Positions 25,229 to 47,070 of a stretch of DNA of 64,000 nucleotides are shown piece after piece. The translations under genes were made by a program, and so were the position numbers. Origin of the DNA: Cyanobium sp. CACIAM 14 (GTDB taxonomy: Bacteria; Cyanobacteriota; Cyanobacteriia; PCC-6307; Cyanobiaceae); assembly GCA_000708525.1 (NCBI GenBank), contig JMRP01000001.1:186001-250000 (forward strand), written 5' to 3'. The notes below the pieces were generated by a model. That model was not told where the DNA came from. It saw nothing but the letters and a program-made list of their open reading frames with translations, and searched no databases. Within the stretch, counting starts at the first letter, position 1; each line of letters starts with the position of its first letter.

Positions 25229-25298
25229 CCACTCATCCTCTCAGCAGGCCCGGCAGACGTTCCACACTGGCGCAGGAAGCCCTCGTGAACCTGCGCCG

Positions 25299-26327
25299 AT
25301 GCCTGCCTACCCGGTGCCGGAGAATGAATCCGAGCGTCAGCGGGTGCTTGAGGACTTCCACGTTCTCGATGGCCCCACCGATGAGGATCTCGACCGCCTC
25401 ACACGGCTCGCCAGCCAGATGCTCGGTCTGCCGATCGCCTTGATTTCCTTCGTCGATCGCGAGCGGCAGTGGTTCCTCTCCCGGGTCGGGCTGGCCTCCA
25501 CGGGCACCGGTCGTGACGTGGCTTTCTGCGCCCACGCCATCTGCGGGGACGAGGTACTGGTGGTGGAGGATGCCCTCCTGGATGAGCGGTTCCGCGACAA
25601 TCCCCTGGTGCGGGGTGACCCCCACATCCGCTTCTACGCCGGGGCGCCTCTGCGGAGCCGGGAGGGGCAGAACCTCGGCACCCTCTGCGTGATCGGCCAG
25701 GAACCGCGGCGGATCGGCGGCAACGAACGCCAGCTGCTGGAGGATCTCGCCGGGCTCGTGATGCAGCACCTGGAGGGGAGGCGACGCAGCTGGCGCTGCC
25801 CCCTGACGGGCCTGTTGAACCGCCGGCCGTTCTTCGAGGAAGGGGAACGTGAGGTGGCCCGTTCCCGTCAGCAGAACTCCCCGCTCTCCCTGGCCCTGCT
25901 GGATCTGGACGCCTTCGCCACCCTCAACGAACGCTTCGGGCGCCCCTTCGGCGACCGGGTGTTGCGCCAGGTGGCCGCACTCGTGACGGCGGAGTGCAAG
26001 GCCAGCGACCTCGTCGGCAGGGTGGCAGACGACGAGTTCGCGGTGCTGATGCCCGACGCCGCTCTGACGGGAGTCAGCGACGTGGCCGCGGCGATCGCCC
26101 GACGGGTCGCGTCGACCGTGTTCGCCGTTGATGGCCTTTCGACCCCCCTGACGGTGAGCGGCGCCGCGGCCCAGCTGGAGGACGGGGACGGGAGCTTCGC
26201 CGATCTCTACTATCGCGCCGAAGCCGCCCTGGAACTGGCCCGGCACCGGGGACGCAACCAGATCGTCACGGCGCCGCCGCTCGCCGGGAGCGAAGGGCGT
26301 CCCGGGCCCGATCCAGAGCCCGGCTGA
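25299..26327 (+). CDS. GAF domain protein with degenerate GGDEF domain
   Basis: A 342-residue protein. Residues about 20-160 form a GAF domain (LDRLTRLASQMLGLPIALIS, CAHAICGDEVLVVEDALLDE). Residues about 165-325 form a GGDEF-type domain (CPLTGLLNRRPFFEE, DLDAFATLNERFG). The active-site motif reads A243-D-D-E-F247 instead of GGDEF, and the inhibitory RxxD site reads KASD, so cyclic di-GMP synthesis is doubtful. It may have become a sensor or receptor. The C-terminus overlaps the convergent hybrid kinase gene by 62 bases. Confidence 0.85.
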   Translation: MPAYPVPENESERQRVLEDFHVLDGPTDEDLDRLTRLASQMLGLPIALISFVDRERQWFLSRVGLASTGTGRDVAFCAHAICGDEVLVVEDALLDERFRDNPLVRGDPHIRFYAGAPLRSREGQNLGTLCVIGQEPRRIGGNERQLLEDLAGLVMQHLEGRRRSWRCPLTGLLNRRPFFEEGEREVARSRQQNSPLSLALLDLDAFATLNERFGRPFGDRVLRQVAALVTAECKASDLVGRVADDEFAVLMPDAALTGVSDVAAAIARRVASTVFAVDGLSTPLTVSGAAAQLEDGDGSFADLYYRAEAALELARHRGRNQIVTAPPLAGSEGRPGPDPEPG

Positions 26328-28260
26328 GGTCCTCCAGCAGGACCGGTTTGGCGAGGAAGTCGTCCATGCCGCTCTCCAGCGCGGCGGCGCGATCGCTCGG
26401 CAGGGCGTTGGCCGTCATCGCCACGATCCACGGCCGCGGACCCGTGGCCCGGAGAGCGCGGATGCGCCGCGTCGCCTCGAGACCGTCCACATGGGGCATG
26501 CGCACATCCATCAGGATCAGGTCGGGAACCCGGCGTTCCACCGCCGCCACCGCTTCCTCCCCGTCGCGGGCCACGGTGGCGCCGTAGCCGAGCCGCTGCA
26601 GCATCAGGGCGCACACCCGGGCATTCACGGGGTTGTCCTCGGCGATCAGGATCTGCAGAGGAGGGCGGCGGGCGGCGGGGTCCTGGGGACGCGCTGAGGA
26701 AGATGCGATCACCGCGGACTCCGCTCCCGAAGGCTCCGGGACCGAAGCCGCCGCCGCCGGGGCATCGGCGCGAGCGGCCGCCGGGAGGGGCAACAGCACC
26801 GTGAAGGTGCTCCCCACGCCACCCTCGCTCACCACCGTGAGCGCCCCGCCGAGGGCGGCCGTCAGACCGCGGCTGAGGGTGAGCCCCAGGCCCACGCCCT
26901 CCTGCAGGCGGGTGGGGGAGGCGTCCCCCTGGGCGAAGGGAACCGAAAGCCGCTCGAGCAGCTCCGGCGCCAGACCCGGCCCCGAGTCGCGCACGGTGAT
27001 GACGAGGCCGCCCCCGCCATCGCATGTGGCAGGGACCAGCGAGGCCGCCACCCGCACCTGGCCGTGGGGGGAGAACTTGATGGCATTGCCGATCAGGTGG
27101 CGGAGGATCTGGCGCAGTCGCAGCGGATCGCACACCACCGTCGCCGGCAGCCCGGGGTCGGCCCGCAGCTCCAGGGCGACGCCCCGGGCCTCCGCCTGGG
27201 GCCGCAGCCGGGCCACCTCCTCCCCCAGAAGGGATCGCAGGCCGCAGGCGGCGGGCTGCACCTCCAGCGCGCCGGACTCCAGCCGCGACACGTCGAGCAG
27301 GTCGCAGAGCAACTGCAGCAGCGACTCCCCGGACGCCTTCAGGGTCTGCAGGGAATCGCGCTGCGAGGGAGTGAGGGAGGTGCCGAGGAGAAGGTCGCTC
27401 AGACCGATCACGGCGTTGAGGGGGGTGCGGAGCTCATGGCTCATCGCGGCCAGGAAGCTGCTCTTGGCCCGGTTCGCCTGCTCCGAGGCGACGGCGGCCT
27501 GGCGGGCCATCTCCTCGGCCGCGGCGATCTCCCGGAAGGCCCTGGCCTGAGAGCACAGGGTTCGCCAGCGGCCGAACGCTACCGCGGCGGCCAGGGCGGC
27601 GCTGCCGGCCAGGGCCACGACGAGGGCGATCCGCAGGGGCCTCAGGAACCCATTGAGGCTCGCCAGGGACAGGTCCACCCCCACCAGACCCACGATCCGG
27701 CCAGCACCATCCCGGAGGGGGGCGTAGGCGCTCAGGAACGTTCCCCACTTGTCGGTGTAGGGGGTGGTGCTGACCACCACACGGCCACGGTGGAAGGCCT
27801 CGGCGACGGCGGCCGGGGCATCGTCATAGAGCTCGCCCGGCTGGGCCACGGGGCTGGTGTCGCCGGGATTGCGGATGAAGGCGGTGGTGTCGATGCCGAA
27901 GCGGAAACCGGCCGGCGAGGGCACCAGGGTGTAGGCGTACGTGACCTCCGGAACGGAACGGCGCAGACGCAGCAGGGGTTCGGAGGCCCGCCGATAGGCG
28001 GCACTGTCCGGCGGGCCCGGCGCCAGGACACCGCCGCCGGCGCGGGTGTCGAGGGAGGCGGCGGCGATGTCGGCCACATCGTCGAGATGGTTGCGGATCT
28101 GAATCTGCAGGGACTCGTTCGCGACGCGGTAGGTGACCACCAGGGCGCCGGCGCTGATGGCGAAGATGGCCAGGCCGGTGAGCAGAGCCTCCCTGCGGAT
28201 CCGCCCCGGCGTCAGGGGCAGCGCGGTAGGCCCCGGGGGCCTCGCCTCCGGGCCGCTCAC
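26266..28260 (-). CDS. Hybrid sensor histidine kinase with periplasmic sensor and receiver
   Basis: A protein of about 664 residues. A first membrane helix lies at residues 27-45 and a second at about 209-230, enclosing a Cache-like extracellular sensor (TYAYTLVPSP, GLVGVDLSLASL). Then come a dimerisation domain with H275 in AAMSHELRTPLN, an ATPase domain (LIGNAIKFS, DSGPGLAPE, GVGLGLTLSRG) and a receiver domain with LILMDVRMPHVDG. The GTG start at 28260 is preferred, since the longer frame runs into the divergent STAS gene. Its partner may be in the neighbouring EPS-linked signalling set. Confidence 0.85.
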   Translation of the reverse strand: MSGPEARPPGPTALPLTPGRIRREALLTGLAIFAISAGALVVTYRVANESLQIQIRNHLDDVADIAAASLDTRAGGGVLAPGPPDSAAYRRASEPLLRLRRSVPEVTYAYTLVPSPAGFRFGIDTTAFIRNPGDTSPVAQPGELYDDAPAAVAEAFHRGRVVVSTTPYTDKWGTFLSAYAPLRDGAGRIVGLVGVDLSLASLNGFLRPLRIALVVALAGSAALAAAVAFGRWRTLCSQARAFREIAAAEEMARQAAVASEQANRAKSSFLAAMSHELRTPLNAVIGLSDLLLGTSLTPSQRDSLQTLKASGESLLQLLCDLLDVSRLESGALEVQPAACGLRSLLGEEVARLRPQAEARGVALELRADPGLPATVVCDPLRLRQILRHLIGNAIKFSPHGQVRVAASLVPATCDGGGGLVITVRDSGPGLAPELLERLSVPFAQGDASPTRLQEGVGLGLTLSRGLTAALGGALTVVSEGGVGSTFTVLLPLPAAARADAPAAAASVPEPSGAESAVIASSSARPQDPAARRPPLQILIAEDNPVNARVCALMLQRLGYGATVARDGEEAVAAVERRVPDLILMDVRMPHVDGLEATRRIRALRATGPRPWIVAMTANALPSDRAAALESGMDDFLAKPVLLEDLSRALDRARDALRSRRAAAP

Positions 28261-28399
28261 GGTGGACCGGAGCGCGTGCAGACCAGAGCCATCCACCTGC
28301 CGCCGCGACCCTCGGACGAACCTAGCCAGCCCATGGTCAGCACTGCCCGTGCTGGGGCAGGATGCAGGTCCGTGAAGCCATCGGGGGCAGCCGGAAGGC

Positions 28400-28750
28400 A
28401 TGGAGGATCTCTACGTGCTGCGTCCCTCCGGGTTCATCGATGCGGAGAAGGGACTGGAGCTTCGCCACACCATCGGCGACCTGGTCGCGGCCCGCCCCCA
28501 GGACATCCTGATCGACTGCGCCGGAGTCGACTTCATGGACAGCAGCGGCTTCGGGTGTCTGGTGGCCACTCTCAAGCGGGTGCGGGAACAGGGACGCCAG
28601 CTCTATCTGTGCAGCCTCAGCTCCCAGCTCCGCATGGTCCTCGAGCTCACCGGCACCGACCGGGTCTTCACCGTCTTCCCCGGTTACGAGGAGTGCCTCG
28701 CCCATCTGCGCTCGGCCCGCCCGCTCACACCTCCGCCTCCGGCACGCTGA
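28400..28750 (+). CDS. STAS domain protein (anti-sigma-factor antagonist-like)
   Basis: A 116-residue single STAS domain like SpoIIAA/RsbV. The phosphorylation loop is VDFMDSSGFG (S48/S49). Such proteins are phosphorylated by RsbW-type kinases and dephosphorylated by PP2C-type phosphatases in partner switching. It converges with the phosphatase gene (28725-29399) and overlaps it by 26 bases, so the pair forms a natural regulatory unit with the RsbW-like gene at 44597. Confidence 0.9.
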   Translation: MEDLYVLRPSGFIDAEKGLELRHTIGDLVAARPQDILIDCAGVDFMDSSGFGCLVATLKRVREQGRQLYLCSLSSQLRMVLELTGTDRVFTVFPGYEECLAHLRSARPLTPPPPAR

Positions 28751-29399
28751 CCAGTAGGAGGGAATAGTCGTCGGGGAACCCGTCACCGGCCGCGCGGCGC
28801 CTCACCTGCTCCACCAGATGGTCGAGGGCCCGTGGACCCTGGAGCTGGGCACGGCACTCCTCCACCAGGGCGAGGAACTCCGGCAGCGTCCCCATTGCCC
28901 CACCGGCCTGGGGGAGTTCGTAGATGCCGTCGCTGTAGACCAGCAGGGAGAAGGGACCGCGCAGATCCACGTTGGTGGTCCCGTAGGTGGCGTCCTCGAA
29001 GAGCCCCAGGGCCAGCCCATGGCCCGAGAGCCGGCTCAGAGGCGCCCCGCTGCCGGGGGACCAGAGCAGGGCCGGGGGATGGCCGGCACTGGCGTAACGG
29101 AGCCGGCGCCGATCCCTCGCATACACCCCGTACCACATCGTGAGGTAGCGGCCCTGCTGGCGCTCCATCGCGAAGGCGGTGTTAAGCGCCGCCAGGACGG
29201 CGTCGGGTTGGCGCAGATCCACCCGCAGCGAGCCGGAGCGAAGCACGTTGTGCAGGGAGATGGAGGGGAAGGCCGCCGCGAGGCCATGGCCCGAGGCATC
29301 GGCGAGGTAGAGCGCGAAGTGATCCTCGTCGATCCAGAAATGGTCGAACACATCTCCCCCCAGCTCATGGGAGGGGACGAAGCGGGAGTGGACGGTCAT
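28725..29399 (-). CDS. SpoIIE/RsbU-type PP2C serine phosphatase
   Basis: A 224-residue phosphatase domain. The metal-binding acids are present in SHELGGDVFDHFW, LADASGHGLAAAF, LVYSDGIYEL and DDYSLLLVSV. These enzymes dephosphorylate STAS proteins. The ATG overlaps the stop of the upstream response regulator by 4 bases. In typical RsbU-like regulators a receiver, a coiled coil and this domain are on one chain, so the two genes look like one protein split at this point. Confidence 0.88.
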   Translation of the reverse strand: MTVHSRFVPSHELGGDVFDHFWIDEDHFALYLADASGHGLAAAFPSISLHNVLRSGSLRVDLRQPDAVLAALNTAFAMERQQGRYLTMWYGVYARDRRRLRYASAGHPPALLWSPGSGAPLSRLSGHGLALGLFEDATYGTTNVDLRGPFSLLVYSDGIYELPQAGGAMGTLPEFLALVEECRAQLQGPRALDHLVEQVRRRAAGDGFPDDYSLLLVSVPEAEV

Positions 29400-29920
29400 T
29401 CCGCCCGCCGAAGGGGGCTCGAGGGCGGGGGGAGGAGCGAGCGCACGTAGTCGGCCGCCTCGGCCAGCTCCGCATCCAGCCGCGATTTCTGCCGCTGCAG
29501 CTCCGCGGCGAGGTCCTGCAGACGTTCGTTCGCCTGGAAGAGGCGCACCCCGGCGCGCACCCGCGCCAGCAGCTCCTCCTGGTCGACGGGCTTGCTGAGG
29601 AAGTCGTCGGCGCCGGAGTCCAGGCCCAGCACGCGATCCTCGACCCGGGAGCGGGAGGTGAGGAGAATGAAATAGGTGGCTGCGAGATCGGCATCGGCCC
29701 GCAGGGCCCGGCAGACCTCCACCCCGTCCATGCCCTCCATCAGCCAGTCGCAGAGAACCACCACGGGGCGCTGCTGCCGGGCCAGCGCCAGCCCCTCCTC
29801 CCCGGAGGAGGCCATCGCCACCCCATAGCCCTCCCGCTGGAGCCGCGCCTGCAGAAGACGGGAGTGGATGCGGTCGTCATCCACCAGCAGGATCGTGAGC
29901 GGGGGAGGGGAGGACCCCAT
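29396..29920 (-). CDS. Response regulator with coiled coil, N-terminal half of a split RsbU-like protein
   Basis: A 174-residue protein with a receiver domain (VDDDRIHSRLLQARL, phospho-acceptor Asp in LCDWLMEGMDG, Thr in LLTSRSR, Lys in SKPVDQ) and a helix from about residue 128 (ERLQDLAAELQRQKSRLD). It ends with SLLPPPSSPLRRAE. PP2C-linked regulators carry SLLPPP at just this point, before the phosphatase domain, so the stop interrupts an expected fusion. Confidence 0.9.
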   Translation of the reverse strand: MGSSPPPLTILLVDDDRIHSRLLQARLQREGYGVAMASSGEEGLALARQQRPVVVLCDWLMEGMDGVEVCRALRADADLAATYFILLTSRSRVEDRVLGLDSGADDFLSKPVDQEELLARVRAGVRLFQANERLQDLAAELQRQKSRLDAELAEAADYVRSLLPPPSSPLRRAE

Positions 29921-29946: not shown

Positions 29947-32460
29947 TCAGACGTCCGCGGGCCGGAGCCGACGCAGGGCCTCGCTGACCCGGCCGGATTC
30001 GATCAGCAGCTCGTCGATGCCCTCCTGGGGCCAGGGAGCCGCAGGTGTGCGAAGGGTCTCCTCGATGCGGGTGCAGAGTCCGGACAGGGGCTTGGCGCCC
30101 AGGCTGGCGCTCGGGGAGCGCAGGGAATGGACGGCGGCGATCATGGCCGCCCGGTCACCGTTCTGCTGGGCCACCACCACCGCGGACACCAGCCGCAGGG
30201 CGTCCTCGAGGTAGAGATCCACGAGCTCCCGCAGCCCGGCATCGGCCTCCTCCCCGAGCACGCTGCGGAGTTCGTCCCATGCGGCCGGATCGATCGTCGA
30301 CGGCCGATCGCTGCCATCGTCCCCAGGCAGGGGGACAGTCACCGGCGGCCCGGAGCGTCCCGTCTGGGGCCGGTAGTGATCGAGGGCGTGGGCGAGGTCG
30401 GCCGGAGCGATGGGCTTGGCGAGGAAGTCGTCCATGCCGGCCTCCCGACTGGCCTGTCGATCCTCGCTGCGGGCGTGGGCCGTCATGGCGATGATCCAGG
30501 GGCGCACCGTCAGGCCCGGGAGCTCGCGGATGGCGCGGGTGGTGGCGTAGCCGTCGAGCCCCGGCATCTGGACGTCCATGAAGATCAGGTCGAAGGCGTG
30601 GAGTTGCACCAGACGGATCGCCTCCTCCCCCGAGGAGGCCACGTCGGCGCGATACCCCAGACGCAGGAGAAGCTGCAGCGCCAGCTTCTGATTCACCGGG
30701 ATGTCGTCGACCACCAGGATGCGCAGGGGCAGACGATCGGCGAGCCGGGGGACGGAGGGCGTCTCCAGCGGGACGGGAGGGGCTCCCGCGCCCCCGCCCT
30801 CAGGACCGTCCAGGAGCAGCTGAGCCAGGGCCGAGCGCAGCTGATAGGCCCGCACGGGCCGGGAGAGCACCTGGGCACGGAGCCCCACGGGCCAAGGCGT
30901 CGAGACACCCTGCCGGCCACGATCCAGCAGGAGTATCCAGGGGGCGCGGGCCCAGCGGGGGTCGCTCTGCCAGAGGGGGAACGCGGGTCCCTCACCGGCC
31001 AGGAAGGGGTGCCCATCGGCGACCACCGCTGCGAACGGCCCGGCCGCGGCCCCATCGCTGAGGTCCGAGGGCTGCTCCCCCAGGGGATCGGCGGCGGTGA
31101 CCGCCAGACCCAGCGCCTCCAGCTGGCGCCGGAGCACCCGGCGGAGGGTGGCGCCGGCGACCAGAAGGAGGAGGTGCGCACCGCCGGGGATGGGCGGGGC
31201 CTGAAGATCCGTCGGTCCCTGGGGATCGATCTCCAGGGGAAGGGTGAGGTGGAAGCAGCTGCCAGCCCCCTCCGCGCTGGAGACCTCGATGGCGCCTCCC
31301 ATCAGCTCGCAGAGCCGTCGGGTGATGGCCAGACCCAGTCCCGTACCCCCGTAGCGGCGGGCCATGGAGGGATCTCCCTGGTGGAACGGCTCGAAGAGGC
31401 GGGGCAGGCGTTCCGCAGGAATGCCGATGCCCGTGTCGCGGACGTCGATTCGGTAGAGGCGACCGCCCGTCTCCCGATCAGCGGAGGGACAGGACACGCC
31501 CACGACGATCTCCCCCCGCGGGGTGAACTTGACGGCGTTGCTCAGCAGGTTCCAGAGGATCTGCCGCAGGCGCGTGCGATCGCCGATCACGGCGGTCGGC
31601 AGGTCGGGATCGAGATCCAGGATCAGGTCCACGTCCTTGTCCGTCGCGCGGGTGGCCATCAGGTCGAGGGCCTCCTCCAGACACACGCCCAGATCGAAGA
31701 CCTGGCGATCCAGCTCCATGGAACCGGCCTCGATCTTGGAGAAATCAAGGATGTCGTTGATGATCGTCAGCAGGGAACCGGTGCTGCTGTTGATGATCTC
31801 CACATATTCCTTCTGCACCGGATCCAGAGACGTCTCCTGCAGCAATCCCGCCATTCCCATGATGGCATTCATAGGTGTTCGGATCTCGTGACTCATGGTG
31901 GCCAGGAAGGTGTCCTTGGCCGAGCTGGCTTCCTCGGCGGCCTGCTTCGCCTCCCGGAGCTCGGCACGCTGCTCCTTGAGAATGGCATTCAGCTGCTCAC
32001 TCTCCGCCAGAGCCACATTGCGGGCCTGGAGAAGGAAGAGATAATCCACCAGCGAATCCTGCAGGGCGAAATCGTTCACCTTCAGGCCCAGGCGGCCCAG
32101 TTCCTCGAGATCGGTGATCCAGGGCGATCCAACGAACAGCAAGGTGCCGCAGGGTTCCTCGCCCTCCCCCAGATCCTGCGGAAGATCGCAGATCTGTCCC
32201 TTCAGCTGCAGGGGGATCGCCAGTGCCTCGAGCATCACCATCTGGCCGATCGTGTCCCGCAGGATCTCGGCACTCAGGGGGGCCTCGGGGCGGTGCAGGC
32301 GAAAATGGTCGGCCAGGGGCGATCCCTCCAGGGCAGGGGCTGCAAGCAGACGGGCCAAGACGCTCCCGCTGCCGGCGATGCGCAGCTCCGCATCGAGCCG
32401 GAGATGGAACGGAAAGAGACGATCCACCAGTGTCGGCGGCAGTCGGAGGGGGAGACCCAT
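29947..32460 (-). CDS. H-NOX-associated hybrid histidine kinase (HNOBA, HisKA, HATPase, two REC, Hpt)
   Basis: A protein of about 837 residues. Residues 1-150 match the H-NOX-associated sensor domain ([19 protein letters not shown], then [11 protein letters not shown] and [14 protein letters not shown]). A coiled coil leads to the kinase, with H191 in [13 protein letters not shown]-box [18 protein letters not shown] and [13 protein letters not shown] degenerate receiver (about 427-550) lacks a clear acceptor. A second receiver has D629 in [13 protein letters not shown]. The C-terminal Hpt has H778 in AAVHSLRS. The ATG at 32460 lies 17 bases after the H-NOX stop. This is a full phosphorelay kinase. 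Confidence 0.9.
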
Positions 32461-32476
32461 CAGACGGAAGCCGGCC

Positions 32477-33043
32477 TCACGACGGGGAGGCGTCCTCGCC
32501 GTAGCGGATGTGGAATAGATCCTGGCCGTCGCCATGGTCGCGGGAGGCGGTCTGCTCCACCTGCACCGGGGTGCTGAAGCGGCGTCCCAGCCCGTGAAGC
32601 AGGCCCACCACCATCGGGGCCAGCCCCTGACGGCGGGAGCGGTATTCCAGGTCGAGGGAGCGCCCATCCGCGTGGCGGCAGCGGAAGGAGGGAGGCTGGA
32701 GCTGGGGGAAGGCCAGGCCGGCCCGGGCGTGCATCGTGTCGAGGTGGTCGAGGAATTCCGGCAGGGTTTCGCCGGTGCTCTCCAGGAGCTGCTCGTAGCC
32801 CTCGGTGGCGGTGTAGGTGATCCAGTACTCGCCGAAGGCGTGCATGATCTCTGCAGCCGTGAGCCCTAGTTCCTCTGAGGCGGCCGCCACCAGCCGGTGG
32901 GTCACGTCGTCGGGATAGGCCTGATAGGTGGAGAAGAAGTCAAGATCCGCCAGATTCGCCTTCTCCTTGATCCGTTGCCAGATGTCTACCCCATGGTGCG
33001 TGCATACCATCTGCTGGATGGCCCGGTTGACGAGGCCGTACAT
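32477..33043 (-). CDS. H-NOX heme-based NO/O2 sensor
   Basis: A 188-residue H-NOX domain protein ([20 protein letters not shown]). The proximal heme ligand is H105 in [16 protein letters not shown], and the heme-propionate motif YxSxR is Y134-R-S-R-R138. Family members bind nitric oxide, some also oxygen, and regulate a partner kinase. Distal-pocket polar residues for oxygen binding were not resolved. It sits 6 bases from the upstream polysaccharide gene and 16 bases from the HNOBA kinase, so it is in the same operon as both. Confidence 0.95.
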
Positions 33044-33049
33044 CGGCGG

Positions 33050-34399
33050 TCAGGGAGGTGTAACGGCCACTATGGCAGAGGACGGATCCTCCTTTGACGG
33101 TTCTTCGGAATTGCTTTTCTCGACAACCCGCTCCTGCAGGGCAAGTCCCATGATCACCATGCCAGGCCAGTAGAGATAGATCAACACCTCGAGGTTTTCC
33201 CCAAACGTATACATGAGAAGAATCAGTGTGATGCTGAGCCCCACGCCTGCTGTCTTGTAGTTCCGGGACGAGGAGGCTTTCGCCAGCAACACCACCAGTG
33301 TGCTGGCCATCGGCACTAGCAGGGAGACGAATCCCGTGAGACCCTTGACGAAAAGCAGCCCTGCCCAGGTGTGATGGGATCCGATCGGCATTCCCTCGAC
33401 CACGTGTGGACCCCGTTCCACGATTCCGTGTCCCCAGATCGGCGCCTCCGTCTGCCAGCGATAGAAGGCAATCCTCTTCAGGGCGAACCGCACCCGTGTG
33501 GAACTGGCGCGGCCGGACTTGAAGCCACTCCACCATTCGTCGAAGAAAATGGTGAGTGTCGGCATCAGAATTCCGCCAAGGAAACTCAGGATTCCAAAGC
33601 TGATCAGGGTGACCGGGCGCCGCAGGCTGGCGAGGATGAAGGTGATCAAAGGGATCAGAAGAAGGCAGAGTTGGGCAAGTCTTGACTTGCAGACCAGGCA
33701 CATGATGATGGCGCCACCAAGACCGGCTGACTTCCATGCCAGGCTCTTCTCCTGCAGCGACAGCATGAAATAGACATTGCCAACGAATCCAAGAGCTGGC
33801 CCCCAGGGCGTGAAGAGACGCCAACGCAATTCGCCTGTGGTATCGATTTCATACAAAGGTACATCGAAGAACTCGTTCCCAGGTCCACCGACGGCGCGCA
33901 GAGGCGAAATATAGAGAACCTGGGGTAGATGGAGGCTGGGTGCAACCAGGAGAAGAGGCGTGATCAGGAGGGTGTGAAGCCCCACGATGCAGGCAGCACG
34001 ATAGATCAACTGGCTGCGGATCTTCAGGCAACCAGCCAGTGGATAGAGGGCCAGTGCTGCCCATCCCTTGGCCCAGCCGATCGATGATTTGAGCAGCATT
34101 CCGGCGCCGAGATCATAATCGAGGTGGCCGATGATCAGGGAGACTTCCATGAAGAGCATGCCCGCGATCCAGATCCAGAGACACCAGTGAAGATGGACTT
34201 TCTGCTCCTCTGGCATCTGGGGTTCCTGGGCGAGAACCTTGATCAGTAGACAAAGAAGCAGCAGCCAGCCCAGAAAGGCGCCGACGACATAGAGGCCACC
34301 GATGGCCCAGATGACATAGGTCAAGGTCATCGACCACCAGATCAGCCACTCTGGGACGTTTTCAGGACGGATCCTGTGCTTTCGAAAATAGGACTGCAT
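33050..34399 (-). CDS. Wzy/O-antigen ligase-like membrane protein
   Basis: A 449-residue polytopic protein with about ten to twelve hydrophobic segments, for example WSMTLTYVIWAIGGLYVVGA and LISFGILSFLGGILMPTL. A large loop between late membrane segments contains RFALKRIAFYRWQTEAPIWG, then HGIVERG and IGSHHTWAGLLFVKG, the typical polymerase/ligase region. It probably polymerises or ligates repeat units of an exopolysaccharide. Its base composition is visibly lower in GC than the neighbouring housekeeping genes. It shares a tight operon with the Wzz- and Wza-like genes. Confidence 0.82.
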   Translation of the reverse strand: MQSYFRKHRIRPENVPEWLIWWSMTLTYVIWAIGGLYVVGAFLGWLLLLCLLIKVLAQEPQMPEEQKVHLHWCLWIWIAGMLFMEVSLIIGHLDYDLGAGMLLKSSIGWAKGWAALALYPLAGCLKIRSQLIYRAACIVGLHTLLITPLLLVAPSLHLPQVLYISPLRAVGGPGNEFFDVPLYEIDTTGELRWRLFTPWGPALGFVGNVYFMLSLQEKSLAWKSAGLGGAIIMCLVCKSRLAQLCLLLIPLITFILASLRRPVTLISFGILSFLGGILMPTLTIFFDEWWSGFKSGRASSTRVRFALKRIAFYRWQTEAPIWGHGIVERGPHVVEGMPIGSHHTWAGLLFVKGLTGFVSLLVPMASTLVVLLAKASSSRNYKTAGVGLSITLILLMYTFGENLEVLIYLYWPGMVIMGLALQERVVEKSNSEEPSKEDPSSAIVAVTPP

Positions 34400-34423
34400 G
34401 GAATCCTGGAATCGGCTGTCGGC

Positions 34424-35854
34424 TCAGGAGGAAACCCAGCGTGAAACCCTCTTCATCCAGGGCTTTCTCAGCCATAGCAACCAGAGGCCCAGGGAGGTGA
34501 ACAGAGATCCGGCTGTTGCTCCAGCCAGAATGAATTTTTTCTTCGGGGCGGCGGGGCTGTCTGGCAGGGAGGGTTCCACGGCGAGCTGCACGAGTGGAAA
34601 GGCCGCGAAAAGGTCCCCCTGGCCCAGATCGAGCTTGGTGAGGGTCGAAGCGAACACCGCTTCGGCGATCTGCTCGTCTCGCTTGAGGCTCTCCAGGTTG
34701 GACTGCGGTTTGGCTACACGCTTGAGTCTCTGTTCCAGATTGGCGATCTGGAATTCCAGGGCGCTGGCCTGGGCATGGAGCCCCTTCTCCTGTACCTGGA
34801 AGTTGAGAAGATTCTGAAACAGGATATCTCTACCGCCAGTCTTGCTGCTGTCTGAAAGGGCCAGCTTGTTGATGGCCTGGGAGGTCAGGCTCTGACCGAG
34901 GAGAGTACGACTGCGATCGATCAGGTAGCGGTAGGACGACTGTCTTTTGTTTCGCTCCTTGAGAACCCTGGGGTGATTATTTCCATACTTTGCCTCCAGC
35001 AGCTTCAGGGTAGCTGTGGATTCACTGTAGTCCTTGAGATACTGCTGAAAAATCTGATCTACCTGCAGTTGGAAGGCTGAGGACGCTTGCGCCGGGGTCA
35101 GACCCAGGCTGCTGGTGAGTTGCGCCAGTTGCTGGGAAGCCTGTTCCCGGCTGGCGATGATCTCAGCGTGCTGCCTTCGAAGCTGCTCGATGCTGGAGGA
35201 GAGATCCTTGACCTGATCCGGAGAACTCAGACCGGAGCGGAACTTGTAATCTGTCACCTTCTGTTGGGCCCGTTCCAGTTTCTTCTGAGCCGCCAAGAGG
35301 ATCCTCTGGCTGGGCCCCTCTCGCTGGCGGATCTCACCCTCGCGAAGCTGGTTGAGCCGTTGCTGAGCGGCCCGATAGAGAGCGATGGATTTCTGTTGAG
35401 CCTCCTTGGGGGACCTGCCGGAGACCTCAAACTGCATCAGCGTGGTGTTGTCGATCAGCTTGATGCGGGGCTTTCCATAGCGATGAGGCTCGATCCCGGC
35501 AAGGCGCGCTGCCTCCCTGAGGACTTGATCGCTGGTGAAGATGTATTCATAATTGGCCCGAGTATCGTAAGTCGTGCCGCCGATTCCCGAGCCACTCGAA
35601 GAGGTGGCCTTACCTATTTCCGGAAGGTTGACATCCACCGCTGTGGAATTGCTGGGCAGGATCAGAGCCCATTTGCTGGTGTAGACCGGCTTGGTGACCA
35701 GCAGAAAGAGGATTGAAGTCATCCAGATGAATGCGTTCGCCACTGCCATGGTCAGCAGATAACGATTCCAACGGTTCTGGGAGAAAGGTCGCCAGAGCGC
35801 AGGGATTTCCTTCAGCTGCCGTCGAATGTTTATGGCGATGGCATGGCTTTCCAT
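34424..35854 (-). CDS. Polysaccharide chain-length / co-polymerase (Wzz/GumC-like)
   Basis: A 476-residue protein with membrane helices near residue 40 (YLLTMAVANAFIWMTSILFL) and near the end (FILAGATAGSLFTSLGLWLL). Between them is a long coiled-coil region (for example EQLRRQHAEIIASREQASQQ). It controls chain length and export, usually together with the Wza channel. There is no tyrosine kinase domain. The ATG at 35854 follows the Wza stop closely; the longer frame overlaps that gene. Confidence 0.85.
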   Translation of the reverse strand: MESHAIAINIRRQLKEIPALWRPFSQNRWNRYLLTMAVANAFIWMTSILFLLVTKPVYTSKWALILPSNSTAVDVNLPEIGKATSSSGSGIGGTTYDTRANYEYIFTSDQVLREAARLAGIEPHRYGKPRIKLIDNTTLMQFEVSGRSPKEAQQKSIALYRAAQQRLNQLREGEIRQREGPSQRILLAAQKKLERAQQKVTDYKFRSGLSSPDQVKDLSSSIEQLRRQHAEIIASREQASQQLAQLTSSLGLTPAQASSAFQLQVDQIFQQYLKDYSESTATLKLLEAKYGNNHPRVLKERNKRQSSYRYLIDRSRTLLGQSLTSQAINKLALSDSSKTGGRDILFQNLLNFQVQEKGLHAQASALEFQIANLEQRLKRVAKPQSNLESLKRDEQIAEAVFASTLTKLDLGQGDLFAAFPLVQLAVEPSLPDSPAAPKKKFILAGATAGSLFTSLGLWLLWLRKPWMKRVSRWVSS

Positions 35855-35861
35855 CGTTGGA

Positions 35862-36938
35862 TCACCAGTTCTGAATGATTCCCACAGGCGTAACAACTTC
35901 GCCGATGGTGCGGATGATATCCCGTAACGTTGTGTATCCCGAATCATAGCAGGCAACAGAGTCGTTGTTCATGAGGTAGGGATTGTCAGCGTCGTTCCTG
36001 GAGTGCATGAGAAGAGAATCCACCTTTCGCTCTAGATATTTCGTCTCGCCTGTCCTCTCATTGGTCCGAACCAGGATGGCATATCGGCCTGCATTGGTGA
36101 AGCGGGTCCCTCCGGCACAGTTTCCTGCCACGACTGCCTGGGAGAATCGTGAGCCATAGGAGAAGGAGGTCGCGTCCCGGCTAATCCCGGAAATGGCATT
36201 TCCTGTTGCCGGAACGGTGAGGTTCGATATGAAGATCTTCACGCCAGTCATCGTGATCGGTGAAGGCCTCACCAATGCATTGTTCACCTGCCCGGTGGAT
36301 GGGACCACCACCTGATCGCCGGCAATGAGCGGAACATCCTGCGTCGGTTCGCCGGTGAAGAAACCCGAGAAGTCATAGGATGTCTCTTTGCCATTGCGGA
36401 TGAGCCGGATCGACGCCACGTCAGCCGTGGGCTTGATGCCGCCGGCGAAGCGAAGGGCAACCGAAAGGAAGCGGTTGGGGGAGTATTGCCCAGTCACGGC
36501 GATCGGGGGGGGCTCGGCTTCCTCGGGTGCTTTCTCGTTGATCATCACGCGCCCCGGCAGAAAGACCTCACCGGCGATGAAGACGCCAATCGGGGCCCAC
36601 TTGACGACATTCACGCCGATTCGCAGGAACGAGGGCTGAAAGAAGCGGCCGCTGATCAGCTCCCTCCGCAGTTTCTCCTTGACCTTCTCCGGCTCCAGCC
36701 CCACCACGGACAGGGGTGCGAGGTAGGGGATCTCGATCTTTCCATCGATCGATACCTCGTAGATGCCGCTGAACTCCTCGCCATCCACGATGCTGATCTT
36801 GATGCGGTCTCCCGGAGAGAGGGGCAGTGCCGAGGCTCCGCTAGCCAGAATCGTCCCCTGCAGGACCGCGCCAGCAATGCATTGGAGCCCCCTTCGGCCG
36901 AGGGAACGCACGCGAGTGACCCGTTTCCATGTCTGCAT
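35862..36938 (-). CDS. Polysaccharide export protein (Wza-like, SLBB)
   Basis: A 358-residue protein with a signal-like N-terminus (AGAVLQGTILASGASALPLS), then the PES domain (GDRIKISIVDGEEFSGIYEV, IEIPYLAPLSVVGL) and SLBB-type strands. Wza-type proteins form the outer-membrane channel for capsule and exopolysaccharide. No lipobox cysteine is evident. It is the first gene of the minus-strand operon and is divergent from the pyruvyl transferase gene. Confidence 0.88.
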   Translation of the reverse strand: MQTWKRVTRVRSLGRRGLQCIAGAVLQGTILASGASALPLSPGDRIKISIVDGEEFSGIYEVSIDGKIEIPYLAPLSVVGLEPEKVKEKLRRELISGRFFQPSFLRIGVNVVKWAPIGVFIAGEVFLPGRVMINEKAPEEAEPPPIAVTGQYSPNRFLSVALRFAGGIKPTADVASIRLIRNGKETSYDFSGFFTGEPTQDVPLIAGDQVVVPSTGQVNNALVRPSPITMTGVKIFISNLTVPATGNAISGISRDATSFSYGSRFSQAVVAGNCAGGTRFTNAGRYAILVRTNERTGETKYLERKVDSLLMHSRNDADNPYLMNNDSVACYDSGYTTLRDIIRTIGEVVTPVGIIQNW

Positions 36939-37124
36939 GAATCTTACCGGAGCGCCTAGCCAAGGCGAACCCCGCGGAGTCGCATCACCCGTTCTGCAGG
37001 TCCACCGTAGGTGCGCCGGCGGGGTTCATGATCCTTTCGGCCCACCGGGGGGCTCTCTCTGCAGGCGGAACCTGATGAAGATAGCATTCTATGGAAGACA
37101 AATCTCACCCCTCATTCTGACGCG
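36939..37124. promoter_or_regulatory. Divergent promoter region of the exopolysaccharide locus
   Basis: The 186 bases separate the two divergent arms of the locus. They must contain both promoters. A short plus-strand open frame of 25 codons (37075-37152) starts MKIAFYGRQISP and overlaps the next gene; it could be a leader or a relic of a glycosyltransferase start. Exact promoter elements could not be assigned. Confidence 0.4.
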
Positions 37125-38222
37125 ATGCCGGTGCGAGCACACCTCGGTTTGATCAATACCTATTCTTCCCTCAATATCGGGGACGCTGCTATCTATTCTG
37201 CCCTGGCGGCTCTGCTGGGGAAGGAGTACGAGATTCTGGCTGCCGTGGGAGACGATCCGCCGCGGATGATGCCTGGCCTCGTCCTATGCCCTGCTCTTCC
37301 CGTTTGCGATGTCTATCTGAGTGTCGGTGGCGACATCTTCAACAATTCTCGTGAATGGTTCCTCACCCGCCGCTTTCTTGGCAATCTCTCTGCACTCATG
37401 CGCTATCCGGATCGGACCATTCTCTTCGGTCAGTCCATCCCCGCCTCCTGCCATGGGTTCAGCTTCCAGTTGCTTGTCCGCTGTCTGCGGCGACTACCGG
37501 CGATCTGCGTACGGGATGCCCTGAGCCATCGTCGCCTGCTCGCGGCCGGGATCCAGGCACGGCTCTCCTACGACACCGCTTTCGCACTGCAGGGGTCGGC
37601 CCCGGCTCGCGAACACGCCCGTTCCCTGCTCCGCCAGGAGGAGATCGACCCCACCCAGTCCGCCCTGATCTCCGTCCGACCCTTCAGCTCCATGTACCGG
37701 CACAACAACGAGCGCTTCGTCGCTGGCCTGGCCCGGCTCTGTCGGCTTCTCGCAGATGCCGGGCTGCGCCCGCTGCTGCTGCTGCAGTCCCTGGCCCATG
37801 GTCCTGATCATGATGCCGCCGTCGCCGCGGAGATCGCGGCCCGGGAACCAAGGGCCAGGCTCGTCGATCCCTTCCACTGGGCCGGTGGAGAGGTAGCCGA
37901 CTGGGATCTTCTGATGGCGATCTTTCAGCTCGTCGGCCTCATCATCGGCGTCCGCTACCACACCTGTGTCCTGGCCCTGGCGGCGGGCCGCTTGCCCTAC
38001 AACCTCCACTATTCGAACAAGGGAAGAGATCTCAGCGAACGCCTGGGAATCCCGGGGATCGGCGTGGAGCACTTCGATCCCGATGCCCAGTTCCAGGACA
38101 TTCTCCGCACGGCGGAGAGGCGTTGGGATCCGGCTGCTGTGCGCGACCATGTGGGCAGATCACTCCGGGAGTGCCTCCGGATCCTTGAGGAGCCCGGTGT
38201 CTCGGGCCGTCACCATCAGTAG
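37125..38222 (+). CDS. Polysaccharide pyruvyl transferase family protein
   Basis: A 365-residue protein beginning GLINTYSSLNIGDAAIYSAL, the conserved start of the pyruvyl-transferase fold (also in CsaB). Further blocks are GGDIFNNSREWF, LFGQSIPASCHGF and IGVRYHTCVLALAAG. It adds a ketal-linked pyruvate from PEP to sugars of the exopolysaccharide, making it acidic. It leads the plus-strand operon. Confidence 0.85.
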   Translation: MPVRAHLGLINTYSSLNIGDAAIYSALAALLGKEYEILAAVGDDPPRMMPGLVLCPALPVCDVYLSVGGDIFNNSREWFLTRRFLGNLSALMRYPDRTILFGQSIPASCHGFSFQLLVRCLRRLPAICVRDALSHRRLLAAGIQARLSYDTAFALQGSAPAREHARSLLRQEEIDPTQSALISVRPFSSMYRHNNERFVAGLARLCRLLADAGLRPLLLLQSLAHGPDHDAAVAAEIAAREPRARLVDPFHWAGGEVADWDLLMAIFQLVGLIIGVRYHTCVLALAAGRLPYNLHYSNKGRDLSERLGIPGIGVEHFDPDAQFQDILRTAERRWDPAAVRDHVGRSLRECLRILEEPGVSGRHHQ

Positions 38223-43070: not shown

Positions 43071-43597
43071 TCCTCGTGCACCTCGGCGAGGAGCCGTTCC
43101 GCTTCGATCGTCTGCTGGGATGGCTGGAGCTGTTCCTGCGGAGGGGCTTCCTGGCGGAGGAGCTGCTCGTGGTGGGTGGCGACGGGCAGGCACTGCCGGC
43201 CCAGCTGCGGGACCACCGCGCGCCGGCGGGAGCCGCGTTCGCGCCCCTGGCCGCCCGGGCCCGCGCCGTCATCGCCGATGCCGGCGAGTCGACCCTGCAG
43301 CGGCTCGAGGACGTGGAGACCCCCTTCCTTCTGGTGCCCCGCTCCCAGCGCTTCGGAGAACAGGTAGACGATCACCAGGTGGAGCTGGCGCTGGTCCTCG
43401 GCGACCTGGGTGTGCCGATCGCCTGGGGGCCGGGGGATCTGCTGCGGTTCCTCGCCGCGCCTCGCCGCGCTGCCCTCGCCGATCTCTCCGGCGGCTCGGC
43501 CCGGGCCCTATGCCAGGCCCTGGAGCGGCGGTTCCCTGCTCCGGTGCCCCAGGTCAACTCCCCAGAGCGCCACCAGGGAAGGGGGGAGCGGCGATGA
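43067..43597 (+). CDS. PssE/Alg13-like C-terminal glycosyltransferase subunit
   Basis: A 176-residue protein: MILVHLGEEPFRFDRLLGWL, then ADAGESTLQRLEDVETPFLL and RSQRFGEQVDDHQVELA, the donor-binding GT28 C-terminal domain. Together with the PssD-like protein it forms one active glycosyltransferase. The stop overlaps the start of the sugar transferase gene. Confidence 0.85.
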   Translation: MILVHLGEEPFRFDRLLGWLELFLRRGFLAEELLVVGGDGQALPAQLRDHRAPAGAAFAPLAARARAVIADAGESTLQRLEDVETPFLLVPRSQRFGEQVDDHQVELALVLGDLGVPIAWGPGDLLRFLAAPRRAALADLSGGSARALCQALERRFPAPVPQVNSPERHQGRGERR

Positions 43598-44592
43598 GCG
43601 ACGCCCTCCCGAGCAGCCAGCACTTGGAGCGGACGCAGCTCCCGACCGGAGCCCTTCTGGTGCGTCTGCCGGAACGCCTCACAGTGCGCGAGGCAGTGCC
43701 GTTCCGCGAGGCCTTCGAATCCCTGCTGAGGGACGATCCCGCCACGGTGATCCTCGACTGCGCCGGCCTGACCCTGATCGACAGCAGCGGCATCGGCGCG
43801 TTGGTCGGCGCGCTCAAGGCGGGCCGCCATACCGGGATCCCGCTGGAGGCCTGGAGCGTGGGCGGACAGGTCCGCCTGGCGCTGGAGCTGGCGGGGCTCG
43901 AGCGGATCCTGCCCATCGAACCCCGCACCGAGGCGCTGCCCGCCCGCAGCGACCAGCGCCCGACGGCCCGACCGCCCCTCACCCATCCCTCCGTGCGCTG
44001 CCGGCCGAAGCGCCTGCTCGACGTGGTGGGGGCGCTGGTGGGCCTGGCGATCACGGCGGTGCTGTTCCTGCCGATCGTTCTCGCCATCCGGCTCGACTCG
44101 CCGGGGCCGATTCTCTTCGGCCAGGTCCGCTGCGGCTGGATGGGACGGCGCTTCCGGCTGTGGAAGTTCCGCTCGATGGTGAGCAACGCCGAGGCCCTGC
44201 GAGCCAGCGTCCCCAACCAGGCCAGCGGGGCGATCTTCAAGAACGACGCCGATCCGCGCATCACCCGCGTCGGTCGCCTCCTGCGCCGCACCAGCCTCGA
44301 CGAGCTGCCCCAGTTCTGGAACGTGCTGGTCGGCGACATGAGCCTGATCGGCACCCGCCCGCCCACTCCCGACGAGGTGGAGCGCTACGCGATCCCCAGC
44401 TGGCAGCGGTTCGACGTGCGCCCGGGGATGTCGGGCGAATGGCAGGTGAGCGGTCGCTCCAGCATCCGCGACTTCGAGGATGTGATCGCCCTTGATCTCC
44501 GTTACCAGGAGCGCTGGAGCTTCCTCTACGACCTGAAGCTGATCCTGCGCACCCTGCGGGTGATCTTCAGCCGAGAATCGGGAGCCGCCTGA
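43594..44592 (+). CDS. STAS domain fused to initiating sugar transferase (polyprenyl glycosylphosphotransferase)
   Basis: A 332-residue protein with an unusual domain order. Residues about 12-115 form a STAS domain with the phosphorylation loop TLIDSSGIGAL (S64/S65). Residues about 145-330 form the bacterial sugar transferase: KRLLDVVGALVGLAIT, LDSPGPILFGQVRCGWMG, RLWKFRSMV, RRTSLDELPQFWNVL, and RPGMSGEWQVSGRS. That enzyme moves the first sugar phosphate onto undecaprenyl phosphate. The usual CoA-binding or multi-helix N-terminus is absent. The ATG overlaps the previous stop; an RsbW-like kinase gene follows after 4 bases. The STAS domain is probably a regulatory switch. Confidence 0.92.
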   Translation: MSDALPSSQHLERTQLPTGALLVRLPERLTVREAVPFREAFESLLRDDPATVILDCAGLTLIDSSGIGALVGALKAGRHTGIPLEAWSVGGQVRLALELAGLERILPIEPRTEALPARSDQRPTARPPLTHPSVRCRPKRLLDVVGALVGLAITAVLFLPIVLAIRLDSPGPILFGQVRCGWMGRRFRLWKFRSMVSNAEALRASVPNQASGAIFKNDADPRITRVGRLLRRTSLDELPQFWNVLVGDMSLIGTRPPTPDEVERYAIPSWQRFDVRPGMSGEWQVSGRSSIRDFEDVIALDLRYQERWSFLYDLKLILRTLRVIFSRESGAA

Positions 44593-44596
44593 ACCG

Positions 44597-45067
44597 GTGG
44601 ACACGCCCCCCCCCGTTGCGAGCCAGCGGCTCCGCGTCGCCAGTTCCCTGGATCGGCTGGAGGAGGTGCTGGCCTGGTTCGCGCGCCTGCGCCACCCGCC
44701 GCTGCCCGAGATGCTGTGGGTGCAGGGGGAGACTGCGCTGGTGGAGGCCTTCTCCAACGCCGTGCGCCATGCCCACGGGCCCCTGGCCGATCCGCCGCCG
44801 GTGGAGCTGGAGGCCTGGCTGGGCGAGGCCGAGTTCGGCCTGGTGATCAGCGATCACGGCCCCCCCTTTGATCTCCGCCAGGCCCTCGACGACCTGCAGG
44901 GCCTGGTGGACTCCCCGGACTTCGACCCGCTGGAGCGCGGCGAGCACTGGGGGCTGATCTTCCTGCTCCGCCTGCGCGACGAGCATGGCTGGTCGATCGG
45001 TCTGGAGCGGACCCGCGAAGGCCGCAACCGCCTTCGGGTGAGCCACCCCCTGGGTACGGCCAGCTAG
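44597..45067 (+). CDS. RsbW-like serine kinase / anti-sigma-type ATPase
   Basis: A 156-residue GHKL ATPase of the HATPase_c_2 class. The N-box is ALVEAFSNAVRHAHGP (E50, N54), and the G1-like motif is VISDHGPPFDL. The family phosphorylates the DSSG serine of STAS partners. The nearby candidate partners are the STAS domain of the sugar transferase just upstream and the STAS protein at 28400. The G2 lid is short (GEHWGLIFL). The stop overlaps the next, convergent gene by 4 bases. Confidence 0.88.
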   Translation: MDTPPPVASQRLRVASSLDRLEEVLAWFARLRHPPLPEMLWVQGETALVEAFSNAVRHAHGPLADPPPVELEAWLGEAEFGLVISDHGPPFDLRQALDDLQGLVDSPDFDPLERGEHWGLIFLLRLRDEHGWSIGLERTREGRNRLRVSHPLGTAS

Positions 45068-46716
45068 ACGGTCCTGGCCTGGCCGGCGTTGCGTTCGTCC
45101 CGCCAGCGGCGACAGCGCGTGATGGCCCCGCGGAGATCCTCGAGCCGCACCGGCTTGGAGAGGAAGTCGTTCATCCCCGCGTCAGCGCAGGCCTGCCGCT
45201 GGGTGTCGAAGGAGAAGGCGGTGAGCGCCACGATGTAGGGCTGGGGGCCGCCGCGGGCGCGGATCCGGCGGGTGGCCTCCAGCCCGTCGATGACGGGCAT
45301 CTCCACGTCCATGAAGATCAGGTCGAACCCACCGGCGCCGGCCTTGTCCACTGCCTCCCCGCCATCCCCCGCGAAGACGGCCGTCAGCTCCAGCTTGGCC
45401 AGCATCAGTTCCAGCAGCCGCTGGTTGACACGGTTGTCCTCGGCCACCAGCAGACGGATCTCGCCCTCTGCAGGGGACTGGCCCGGCAAGGCAGGGGCCA
45501 CGGGATGGGCAGGGGCTTTGGCGGTCAGCACAGGAAGGTGAACTCGGAAGCGGCTGCCTTTCCCTTGCACGCTCTCCACCGTGATGGATCCCCCCATCAG
45601 ATCGCATAAACGGCGACAGATGGCCAGTCCGAGGCCGCTGCTGCTGCTCCGGGAACTGCCCTCCTCGAGGGGATGGCGGACGAAGGCCTCGAAGATCTTG
45701 GGGAGACGGTCCTCGGAGATGCCGATCCCCGTGTCCTCCACAACAATCTCCAGGAATGTGGAGTCCTCTGTGGTCGAAAGGGGCCGCAGGTTGAGGCTGA
45801 TCGATCCCCATTCGGTGTACTTCACAGCATTGCCGAGCAGATTCATCAGGATCTGGCGCAGTTTCTGATCGTCGCCTCCCAGCCATTCGGGGATCTCGGC
45901 AGCGATCCGGTGATCCAGTGTCAGCCCTTTTGACTCCGCCCCGTGCCTCATCTGTCGGCAGACTTCTTCCACCAGGGCCCGGATCCGGAAGCGGCGGAGC
46001 CGCAGTTCCATGCGGTTGGCCTCGATCCGTGTGATGTCGAGGATGTCGTTGATCAGGGCGAGCAGATGATCGCCGCTTTCGTGGATGGTGTTCACAAGTT
46101 CTCTCTGCTGGGAATCGAGGGCCGTATCGCGCAACAGCTCCGCCATGCCTATCACCGCATTCATGGGGGTGCGGATGTCGTGGCTCATGTTGGCCAGGAA
46201 CACACTCTTGGCCTGACTGGCGGCGAGGGCCTCATCGCGAGCCTCGACTAGCTCCCGGGTGCGCTCGGCCACCTGCTCCTCAAGCCGTTCGCGGGCTTCG
46301 ATCAAGCGGTCCTGGGCCTCCACGGTCGGGGTGAGGTCGCGGAAGGTGAAGATCAGCGAGGATTGTTGAGGGATCTGGACCGAGGCCCAGCTCACTTCCA
46401 TCACCAGCCGGGGAGCCTCGGGCCGCAGATCCCAGGTGGTGCGACCAGGCCCCAGCCGCGCCCAGGCCAGCAGGCAATCGGTGGGTTCGGGTCGGCCCTC
46501 CTGGTAGCGGTTAGGGAGCACCTTCGGGAGACGCTGACCCAGCAGGAGCAGGCGTGGCCGTCCGATCAGGCGGTCGAATGCGGCATTGGTCCATTCGATG
46601 GTCCCTTCGGCATCGGTGAAGACCATTGCTTCGGACACCACTCCCAGTGCGGCTTCGAGGCGTCCGAGCGTGCGGCGCAGCTGCTCGATCAGGTCGTCGG
46701 TTCGCTCCGGCGTCAT
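45064..46716 (-). CDS. PAS-containing hybrid histidine kinase
   Basis: A 550-residue cytoplasmic sensor. A PAS domain (about 23-130; EAMVFTDAEGTIEWTNAAFD) is followed by a coiled coil, a kinase core with H179 in ANMSHDIRTPMNAV, ATPase motifs LLGNAVKYTEWG, EDTGIGISEDR and SSGLGLAICRR, and a receiver with LIFMDVEMPVIDG. No membrane segment is present. It lies 6 bases from a small PAS protein, so the signal may be sensed by that partner. The target response regulator is unknown. Confidence 0.88.
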   Translation of the reverse strand: MTPERTDDLIEQLRRTLGRLEAALGVVSEAMVFTDAEGTIEWTNAAFDRLIGRPRLLLLGQRLPKVLPNRYQEGRPEPTDCLLAWARLGPGRTTWDLRPEAPRLVMEVSWASVQIPQQSSLIFTFRDLTPTVEAQDRLIEARERLEEQVAERTRELVEARDEALAASQAKSVFLANMSHDIRTPMNAVIGMAELLRDTALDSQQRELVNTIHESGDHLLALINDILDITRIEANRMELRLRRFRIRALVEEVCRQMRHGAESKGLTLDHRIAAEIPEWLGGDDQKLRQILMNLLGNAVKYTEWGSISLNLRPLSTTEDSTFLEIVVEDTGIGISEDRLPKIFEAFVRHPLEEGSSRSSSSGLGLAICRRLCDLMGGSITVESVQGKGSRFRVHLPVLTAKAPAHPVAPALPGQSPAEGEIRLLVAEDNRVNQRLLELMLAKLELTAVFAGDGGEAVDKAGAGGFDLIFMDVEMPVIDGLEATRRIRARGGPQPYIVALTAFSFDTQRQACADAGMNDFLSKPVRLEDLRGAITRCRRWRDERNAGQARTV

Positions 46717-46722
46717 ACCGCC

Positions 46723-47070
46723 TCAGCCAAGCGGCTCGAGCGTGGCGGCGAAGACCCAGACATCCCCCCGGCGCTGGGCAACGATGTAGTGCTCCGATTC
46801 GATCTGACGGCCGTCCTTGCAGACGGTCATCAGCCGCAAAGGGTGGTTGAGCACCACCGACTCGCCTGTGATCTGAAACCGGGAAAAACCGAGGTGATGG
46901 GCATCGCGGAAGGCGCCCGGCAGGATCAGAGAGAGCGATTGGCCCAGCAGATCCTCCGGTAACCAGCCATAGGCCTGTTCGAACTGTGCATTGACCTCCT
47001 CGATCAGACCTTGATGATCCGCCAGAACGAAGGGCAGGTCGCGGCTTCGCAGCTCCTCGATGGTGACCAT
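46723..47070 (-). CDS. Stand-alone PAS domain protein
   Basis: A 115-residue protein that is a single PAS domain: VTIEELRSRDLPFVLADHQG, NAQFEQAYGWLPEDLLGQSL and KDGRQIESEHYIVAQRRGDV. The arrangement suits a small soluble sensor or adaptor. It is coupled with the hybrid kinase 6 bases downstream. The ATG at 47070 is preferred over 47088 because it leads directly into the domain. Confidence 0.75.
   Translation of the reverse strand: MVTIEELRSRDLPFVLADHQGLIEEVNAQFEQAYGWLPEDLLGQSLSLILPGAFRDAHHLGFSRFQITGESVVLNHPLRLMTVCKDGRQIESEHYIVAQRRGDVWVFAATLEPLG

Follow-up and report, generated by a model that had tools for sequence, protein, structure and literature searches.

Genes at the locus

The window analysed here is a stretch of 64,000 nt (186001-250000) from the 3.2 Mb draft genome of a freshwater-type cyanobacterium, and it carries the only H-NOX gene of that genome (Table 1). 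The gene lies in an exopolysaccharide (EPS) cluster, putatively of the Wzx/Wzy type, for which PF02397 and PF02563 were matched, the Wzc match is weak, and Wzy and the flippase are recognised by similarity among relatives and by position only. The name 'Wzy' for the 449-aa protein, which has no Pfam or NCBIfam match, likewise reflects membrane-protein character and position only; the match to this gene at L096 (genome G001) has a single in-frame TGA.

Seven genes form a chain on the minus strand, in the order Wza, Wzc, Wzy, H-NOX, hybrid kinase, REC and PP2C, with successive gaps of 7, 24, 6, 16, 26 and -4 nt. The coordinates of the Wzy-like stop (TGA, 33052-33050) and of the H-NOX ATG (33043) agree with the 6 nt spacing given in a preliminary description of this DNA. 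Within 32001-38000 the GC content of the Wza/Wzc/Wzy genes is lower (56-62%) than that of the sequence from H-NOX onward (66-71%).

Table 1. Features of the H-NOX locus and of the distal part of the EPS cluster (window coordinates).
Feature	Position	Strand	Evidence and remarks
STAS anti-sigma-antagonist-like protein, DSSG motif	28400..28750	+	PF01740 70 bits; TIGR00377 above cut-off; convergent with PP2C
SpoIIE/PP2C phosphatase, C-terminal half of split REC-PP2C	28725..29399	-	PF07228 141 bits; overlaps REC by 4 nt (ATGA)
REC and coiled linker, N-terminal half of split REC-PP2C	29396..29920	-	PF00072; fused in relatives
H-NOX-associated hybrid histidine kinase, 837 aa	29947..32460	-	Pfam: HNOBA, HisKA, HATPase_c, REC, Hpt
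Hpt domain of kinase	30004..30228	-	PF01627 37 bits; His conserved
Degenerate receiver-like domain of kinase	30781..31197	-	AlphaFold and Foldseek
H-NOX gas sensor, 188 aa	32477..33043	-	PF07700 175 bits, over cut-off
Wzy-like membrane protein, 449 aa	33050..34399	-	ORF, hydrophobic segments
Wzc-like chain-length protein	34424..35854	-	Weak TIGR03007 match, below cut-off; position conserved
Wza-like export protein	35862..36938	-	PF02563 44 bits
STAS domain (DSSG) fused to priming sugar transferase	43594..44592	+	PF01740 51 bits and PF02397 210 bits, one ORF
RsbW-like serine kinase (HATPase_c_2)	44597..45067	+	PF13581 53 bits, over cut-off; 4 nt after STAS-transferase
PAS hybrid histidine kinase without Hpt	45064..46716	-	Pfam; relatives (L111-L114) in post-wzy slot where H-NOX absent
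Small PAS-like protein upstream of PAS kinase	46723..47070	-	Translation; PAS in relatives L111 and L112

The H-NOX protein aligns end to end and without gaps with Nostoc Alr2278 H-NOX (E 1e-75), has close relatives in Cyanobium sp. Prado107, Synechococcus sp. CCY 0621, Synechococcus sp. BO 8801 and Aphanothece saxicola, and retains W74, the proximal H105, P118, the Y134-x-S136-x-R138 heme motif and M144. A distal tyrosine marks O2-binding H-NOX proteins. Since the window protein has no tyrosine at that position, by the usual rule it should sense NO and not O2, and NO is its predicted ligand.

The adjoining gene encodes a hybrid kinase with an HNOBA domain (PF07701, 78 bits). Its first in-frame ATG, at 32667, falls within H-NOX, and homology places the true start near 32460. 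Comparison with 15 relatives shows that the H-box histidine (H191) and the Hpt histidine (H778) are conserved. The same chain had been described as carrying a degenerate first receiver and an Hpt, and both assignments hold. The receiver-like domain, which lies between the ATPase and the REC domain, has no Pfam match and lacks the acidic pair. Its AlphaFold model, although weak (mean pLDDT only 60), nonetheless shows beta and alpha elements in receiver order, and Foldseek placed receivers first among its PDB matches (probability 1.00, TM about 0.55). The second receiver is normal.

The two ORFs that follow the kinase are halves of one protein. The GGD, SGHG, SDG and DD catalytic motifs are present in the PP2C ORF, and almost every relative checked has REC and PP2C joined in a single open frame of about 390-425 codons (425 in Prado107, with 72% identity to the window PP2C); for that reason we rejected 29396-29920 as a stand-alone regulator. 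The relay proposed earlier to a regulator at 29396 is plausible, but its supposed end point is the receiver half of a phosphatase, so that a partner switch would take the place of a DNA-binding regulator as the output. The change of frame in the window falls inside a C-rich stretch (29380-29450); this run is all that supports a programmed frameshift, and a one-base difference or an assembly error is equally likely. Unless it is an assembly error, control of the phosphatase by REC may be impaired in the window because the two halves are separate ORFs, and this counts against the relay proposed below. One further genome (G032) has an internal TAG in its REC-PP2C gene.

A STAS domain occurs twice, in the small protein convergent with PP2C and at the priming transferase, each time with the phosphorylatable-serine motif DSSG. 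The STAS-transferase and the RsbW-like gene stand together in 14/14 complete family clusters checked, the window included, and a phylum-wide search found an RsbW-like frame within 1.5 kb in 21 of the 28 best STAS-transferase loci. Two observations weigh on the other side: RsbW NCBIfam models match the kinase-like protein weakly (20 bits), and the STAS-transferase sits at the far end of the EPS cluster, 15 kb from PP2C. Neither the REC-PP2C nature of the phosphatase nor the STAS-transferase with its RsbW-like kinase (43.6-45.1 kb) had been mentioned in the preliminary description.

Conservation of the block and of the sequence before H-NOX

H-NOX occurs in 22 of 400 genomes of the family, 16 times with an Hpt-type kinase as partner and six times as a second type (L030, L031, L040-L043), in which H-NOX is followed by an HNOBA-GGDEF protein. 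No wzy match was found in any of the six genomes with the second type, and the statement that H-NOX always goes with the kinase and EPS was rejected, as this type has neither. At all 16 kinase-type loci a polysaccharide gene of the same strand precedes H-NOX, or what is left of it, and REC-PP2C and the convergent STAS gene come after it wherever the contig extends. Across the family wzy is present in 26/400 genomes and kinase-type H-NOX in 16, with both in 15 (Fisher p 2e-19, not corrected for kinship). Synteny inside one family is largely inherited, and this counts against a functional reading of the linkage. The gene before H-NOX is a pyruvyl transferase (PPT) in 9/16 loci, where the segment [PPT <- -> wza wzc wzy], corresponding to 33050-37125 in the window, is inverted; this requires at least two changes on the kinase tree, where the window and L035 sit on long branches. 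On the other side of the block, a GAF-GGDEF protein (about 25293-26327) and a hybrid kinase, HK2 (26266-28401), are kept as neighbours beside the STAS gene in most relatives.

Three genomes (G019, G003 and G088; loci L033, L034 and L120) have an intact HNOBA kinase next to an H-NOX that is frameshifted, decayed or truncated. H-NOX is thus dispensable there, which counts against a relay driven by NO.

EPS genomes that have no H-NOX show what else can occupy the slot behind wzy. Four of them (G002, G075, G215 and G226) have a PAS protein, a PAS-kinase and a separate Hpt, G108 has a GAF-like kinase with an Hpt, and G031 has an Hpt only. In G006 (L118, 9248-10822) the slot gave no H-NOX match; transposase-like DNA lies at the place of H-NOX, followed by an HNOBA-PAS-GAF kinase with an Hpt. 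REC-PP2C and the convergent STAS gene are kept in every one of these genomes. In G091 an ammonium transporter takes the place of the sensor genes. The constant part of the locus is therefore Hpt, REC-PP2C and STAS, and the variable part is the sensor. A PAS-protein/PAS-kinase unit changes place within the cluster: it adjoins RsbW in the window and in Prado107, follows STAS in other genomes that have H-NOX, and stands behind wzy in genomes without H-NOX (window 45064-47070; L024, L035, L037 and L120; L111-L114).

The arrangement recurs in another family, where one genome (G477, locus L208) has, contiguously, EPS genes, the STAS-transferase, RsbW, STAS, a convergent REC-PP2C of 415 codons, the HNOBA kinase and H-NOX. 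Two more loci (L217 in G441 and L221 in G423) have the same block with the HNOBA kinase and no adjacent H-NOX; in these genomes H-NOX is found elsewhere. Elsewhere among the cyanobacteria, the H-NOX loci examined fall outside EPS clusters, and their kinases are for the most part more remote: identity to the window kinase is mostly 22-29%, as against 42-45% between the window type and its own distant relatives.

The sequence before H-NOX was compared between the window and 14 relatives. A TANNNT box lies 27-35 nt before the H-NOX ATG in 14 of the 15 upstream regions, the window alone being without it. Exactly TAGATT, at -27 to -29, is found in 11 relatives, while TAAATT, TAATAT and TAGGTT make up the remaining three. 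In 5000 shuffles, a control that ignores kinship, no hexamer exceeded 3/15. Between the wzy-led and the PPT-led groups the hexamer is 98% identical, compared with 36% for the 20 nt before it and 25% for the spacer after it. Because the flanks have diverged while the hexamer was kept, its conservation does not come from kinship alone. TAGATT is also rare: three of these loci have no more than one or two copies of it per 20 kb. The relatives therefore probably have a dedicated H-NOX promoter with TAGATT as a -10-like element, which the window lineage would have lost, and dependence of the window H-NOX on the wzy transcript is probably a derived state.

It had been proposed that H-NOX is expressed together with the export genes and has no promoter of its own. 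For the window this is well in line with the sequence: a consensus scan between the Wzy-like gene and H-NOX found no internal promoter or terminator, match numbers in the region being near shuffled expectation, and no TANNNT lies within 160 nt upstream of H-NOX (the nearest is at -166). Given this and the 6 nt gap, co-expression with wzy is plausible here. The proposal probably does not carry over to the relatives, with their TANNNT boxes, and the idea of a conserved 6-nt operon was rejected because the other gaps range from 32 to 135 nt.

A possible route from NO to polysaccharide initiation

Based on these comparisons we can present a rough proposal for what the locus does. NO-bound H-NOX would alter the activity of the hybrid kinase through HNOBA, and phosphate would pass from the kinase REC to the Hpt and on to the REC-PP2C phosphatase, which in the window is encoded by two ORFs. 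This phosphatase would then remove phosphate from the STAS protein and, if the proposal is taken to its full extent, also from the STAS domain on the priming sugar transferase, while the RsbW-like kinase encoded beside the transferase would rephosphorylate STAS. NO would in this way set the amount of polysaccharide that is started, after transcription, and by analogy it would lower EPS. The window H-NOX and kinase probably share the wzy transcript as well. That an NO-sensing phosphorelay controls polysaccharide initiation through PP2C and a STAS partner switch is a proposition to which we give about an even chance. The stronger form, in which the switch acts directly on the STAS domain of the priming transferase and the sensor (H-NOX, PAS or GAF) has been exchanged between lineages, is more tentative, and we would sooner bet against it than for it; the separate STAS protein could act on another target, which counts against the model.

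The alternative that survives best is a partner switch of the canonical kind, in which STAS and the RsbW-like kinase control a sigma factor for the EPS genes and the transferase has its STAS domain for docking or stability only. STAS, PP2C and HATPase_c_2 make up the classical Rsb set, other bacteria use Rsb-like sets to regulate sigma factors, and the role of STAS domains in larger proteins is often unknown (PMC8256260). However, no sigma-factor gene was recognised, by eye and among the families scanned, in the genes adjacent to the partner-switch components in the window or in L208, and the RsbW gene adjoins the STAS-transferase here as it does in most of the best loci of the phylum. The STAS protein is moreover itself the output in the Nostoc HmpU/V/W (PMC6495340) and Vibrio SypE/SypA (PMC8256260) systems. 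We consider a sigma-factor output unlikely.

It is rather unlikely, too, that H-NOX and its kinase are merely co-expressed with the export genes, with the relay output lying elsewhere and no special role in EPS. The tight junction in the window, with neither terminator nor promoter, is what such transcript sharing would look like. The promoter-like TAGATT before H-NOX in relatives nevertheless implies that the neighbourhood is kept together by something other than a shared transcript, and the linkage outlasts the inversions of the upstream segment, of which there were at least two, and recurs in another family behind a different upstream gene.

Least probable, and in our view quite improbable, is a cyclic-di-GMP output, with the relay acting on the GAF-GGDEF protein and HK2, in the way that many H-NOX systems act on c-di-GMP: these genes are conserved neighbours in most relatives and the second H-NOX type of the family goes with HNOBA-GGDEF proteins, but the partners that stay constant through the sensor swaps are Hpt, REC-PP2C and STAS, and the GGDEF gene has no match in several swapped loci (L111-L114) or in L208.

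If the proposed relay is correct, it gives cyanobacterial H-NOX an output, and the locus forms a natural series in which sensors are exchanged while the output stays constant.

Relation to known systems

Our literature search found no paper joining a STAS domain, a sugar transferase and exopolysaccharide, and, in the papers searched, nothing that ties a STAS-transferase fusion to both a gas sensor and a partner switch. The fusion as such is not new, since Anabaena all4160, a glycosyltransferase with an N-terminal STAS domain, is listed as needed for heterocyst envelope polysaccharide (PMC8256260, PMC4390870). By that description it resembles the window protein in its STAS-glycosyltransferase fusion and differs in that the portions of these sources dealing with it describe no partner-switch or gas-sensor link. 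Nostoc Alr2278 is alike on the sensor side, where, besides the gapless H-NOX alignment, an HNOBA kinase follows H-NOX in both.

Among partner switches, B. subtilis RsbU/RsbV/RsbW shares with the window a PP2C phosphatase, a STAS protein with a DSSG-type serine and a HATPase_c_2 kinase, in the window a putative one. The window differs in that its phosphatase has a REC domain, predicted to be fed by a phosphorelay, in that no sigma-factor gene was recognised adjacent to the set, and in that STAS is also fused to an enzyme. The HmpU/HmpV/HmpW system of Nostoc punctiforme, as described, is alike in combining a phosphatase, a STAS protein and an anti-sigma-type kinase, in its link to motility and polysaccharide, and in having STAS as its output; it differs in that, within the passages of these sources that treat it, neither an H-NOX input nor a STAS-transferase fusion is reported (PMC6495340, PMC8256260).

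A parallel along the whole route is that of Vibrio fischeri, where HnoX inhibits HahK, upstream of SypE-SypA and the syp polysaccharide; SypE exerts its control over the STAS protein SypA below the level of syp transcription (PMC12369376). HnoX-HahK-SypF-SypE/SypA and the window both have an H-NOX with a cognate hybrid kinase, an Hpt relay, a regulator that sets, or in the window would set, STAS phosphorylation, and a polysaccharide output, likewise proposed for the window (PMC12369376, PMC8256260). Unlike its Vibrio counterpart, the window REC-PP2C lacks a kinase domain, and a separate RsbW-like kinase is encoded; the window H-NOX genes lie inside the EPS cluster, and STAS is fused to the priming transferase. 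The target of SypA is described as unknown (PMC8256260), as is the way in which SypA and the Nostoc HmpV act on polysaccharide or motility (PMC8256260, PMC6495340). A STAS domain within the priming transferase, with a kinase gene 4 nt behind it and a phosphatase nearby, would present a concrete and testable target.
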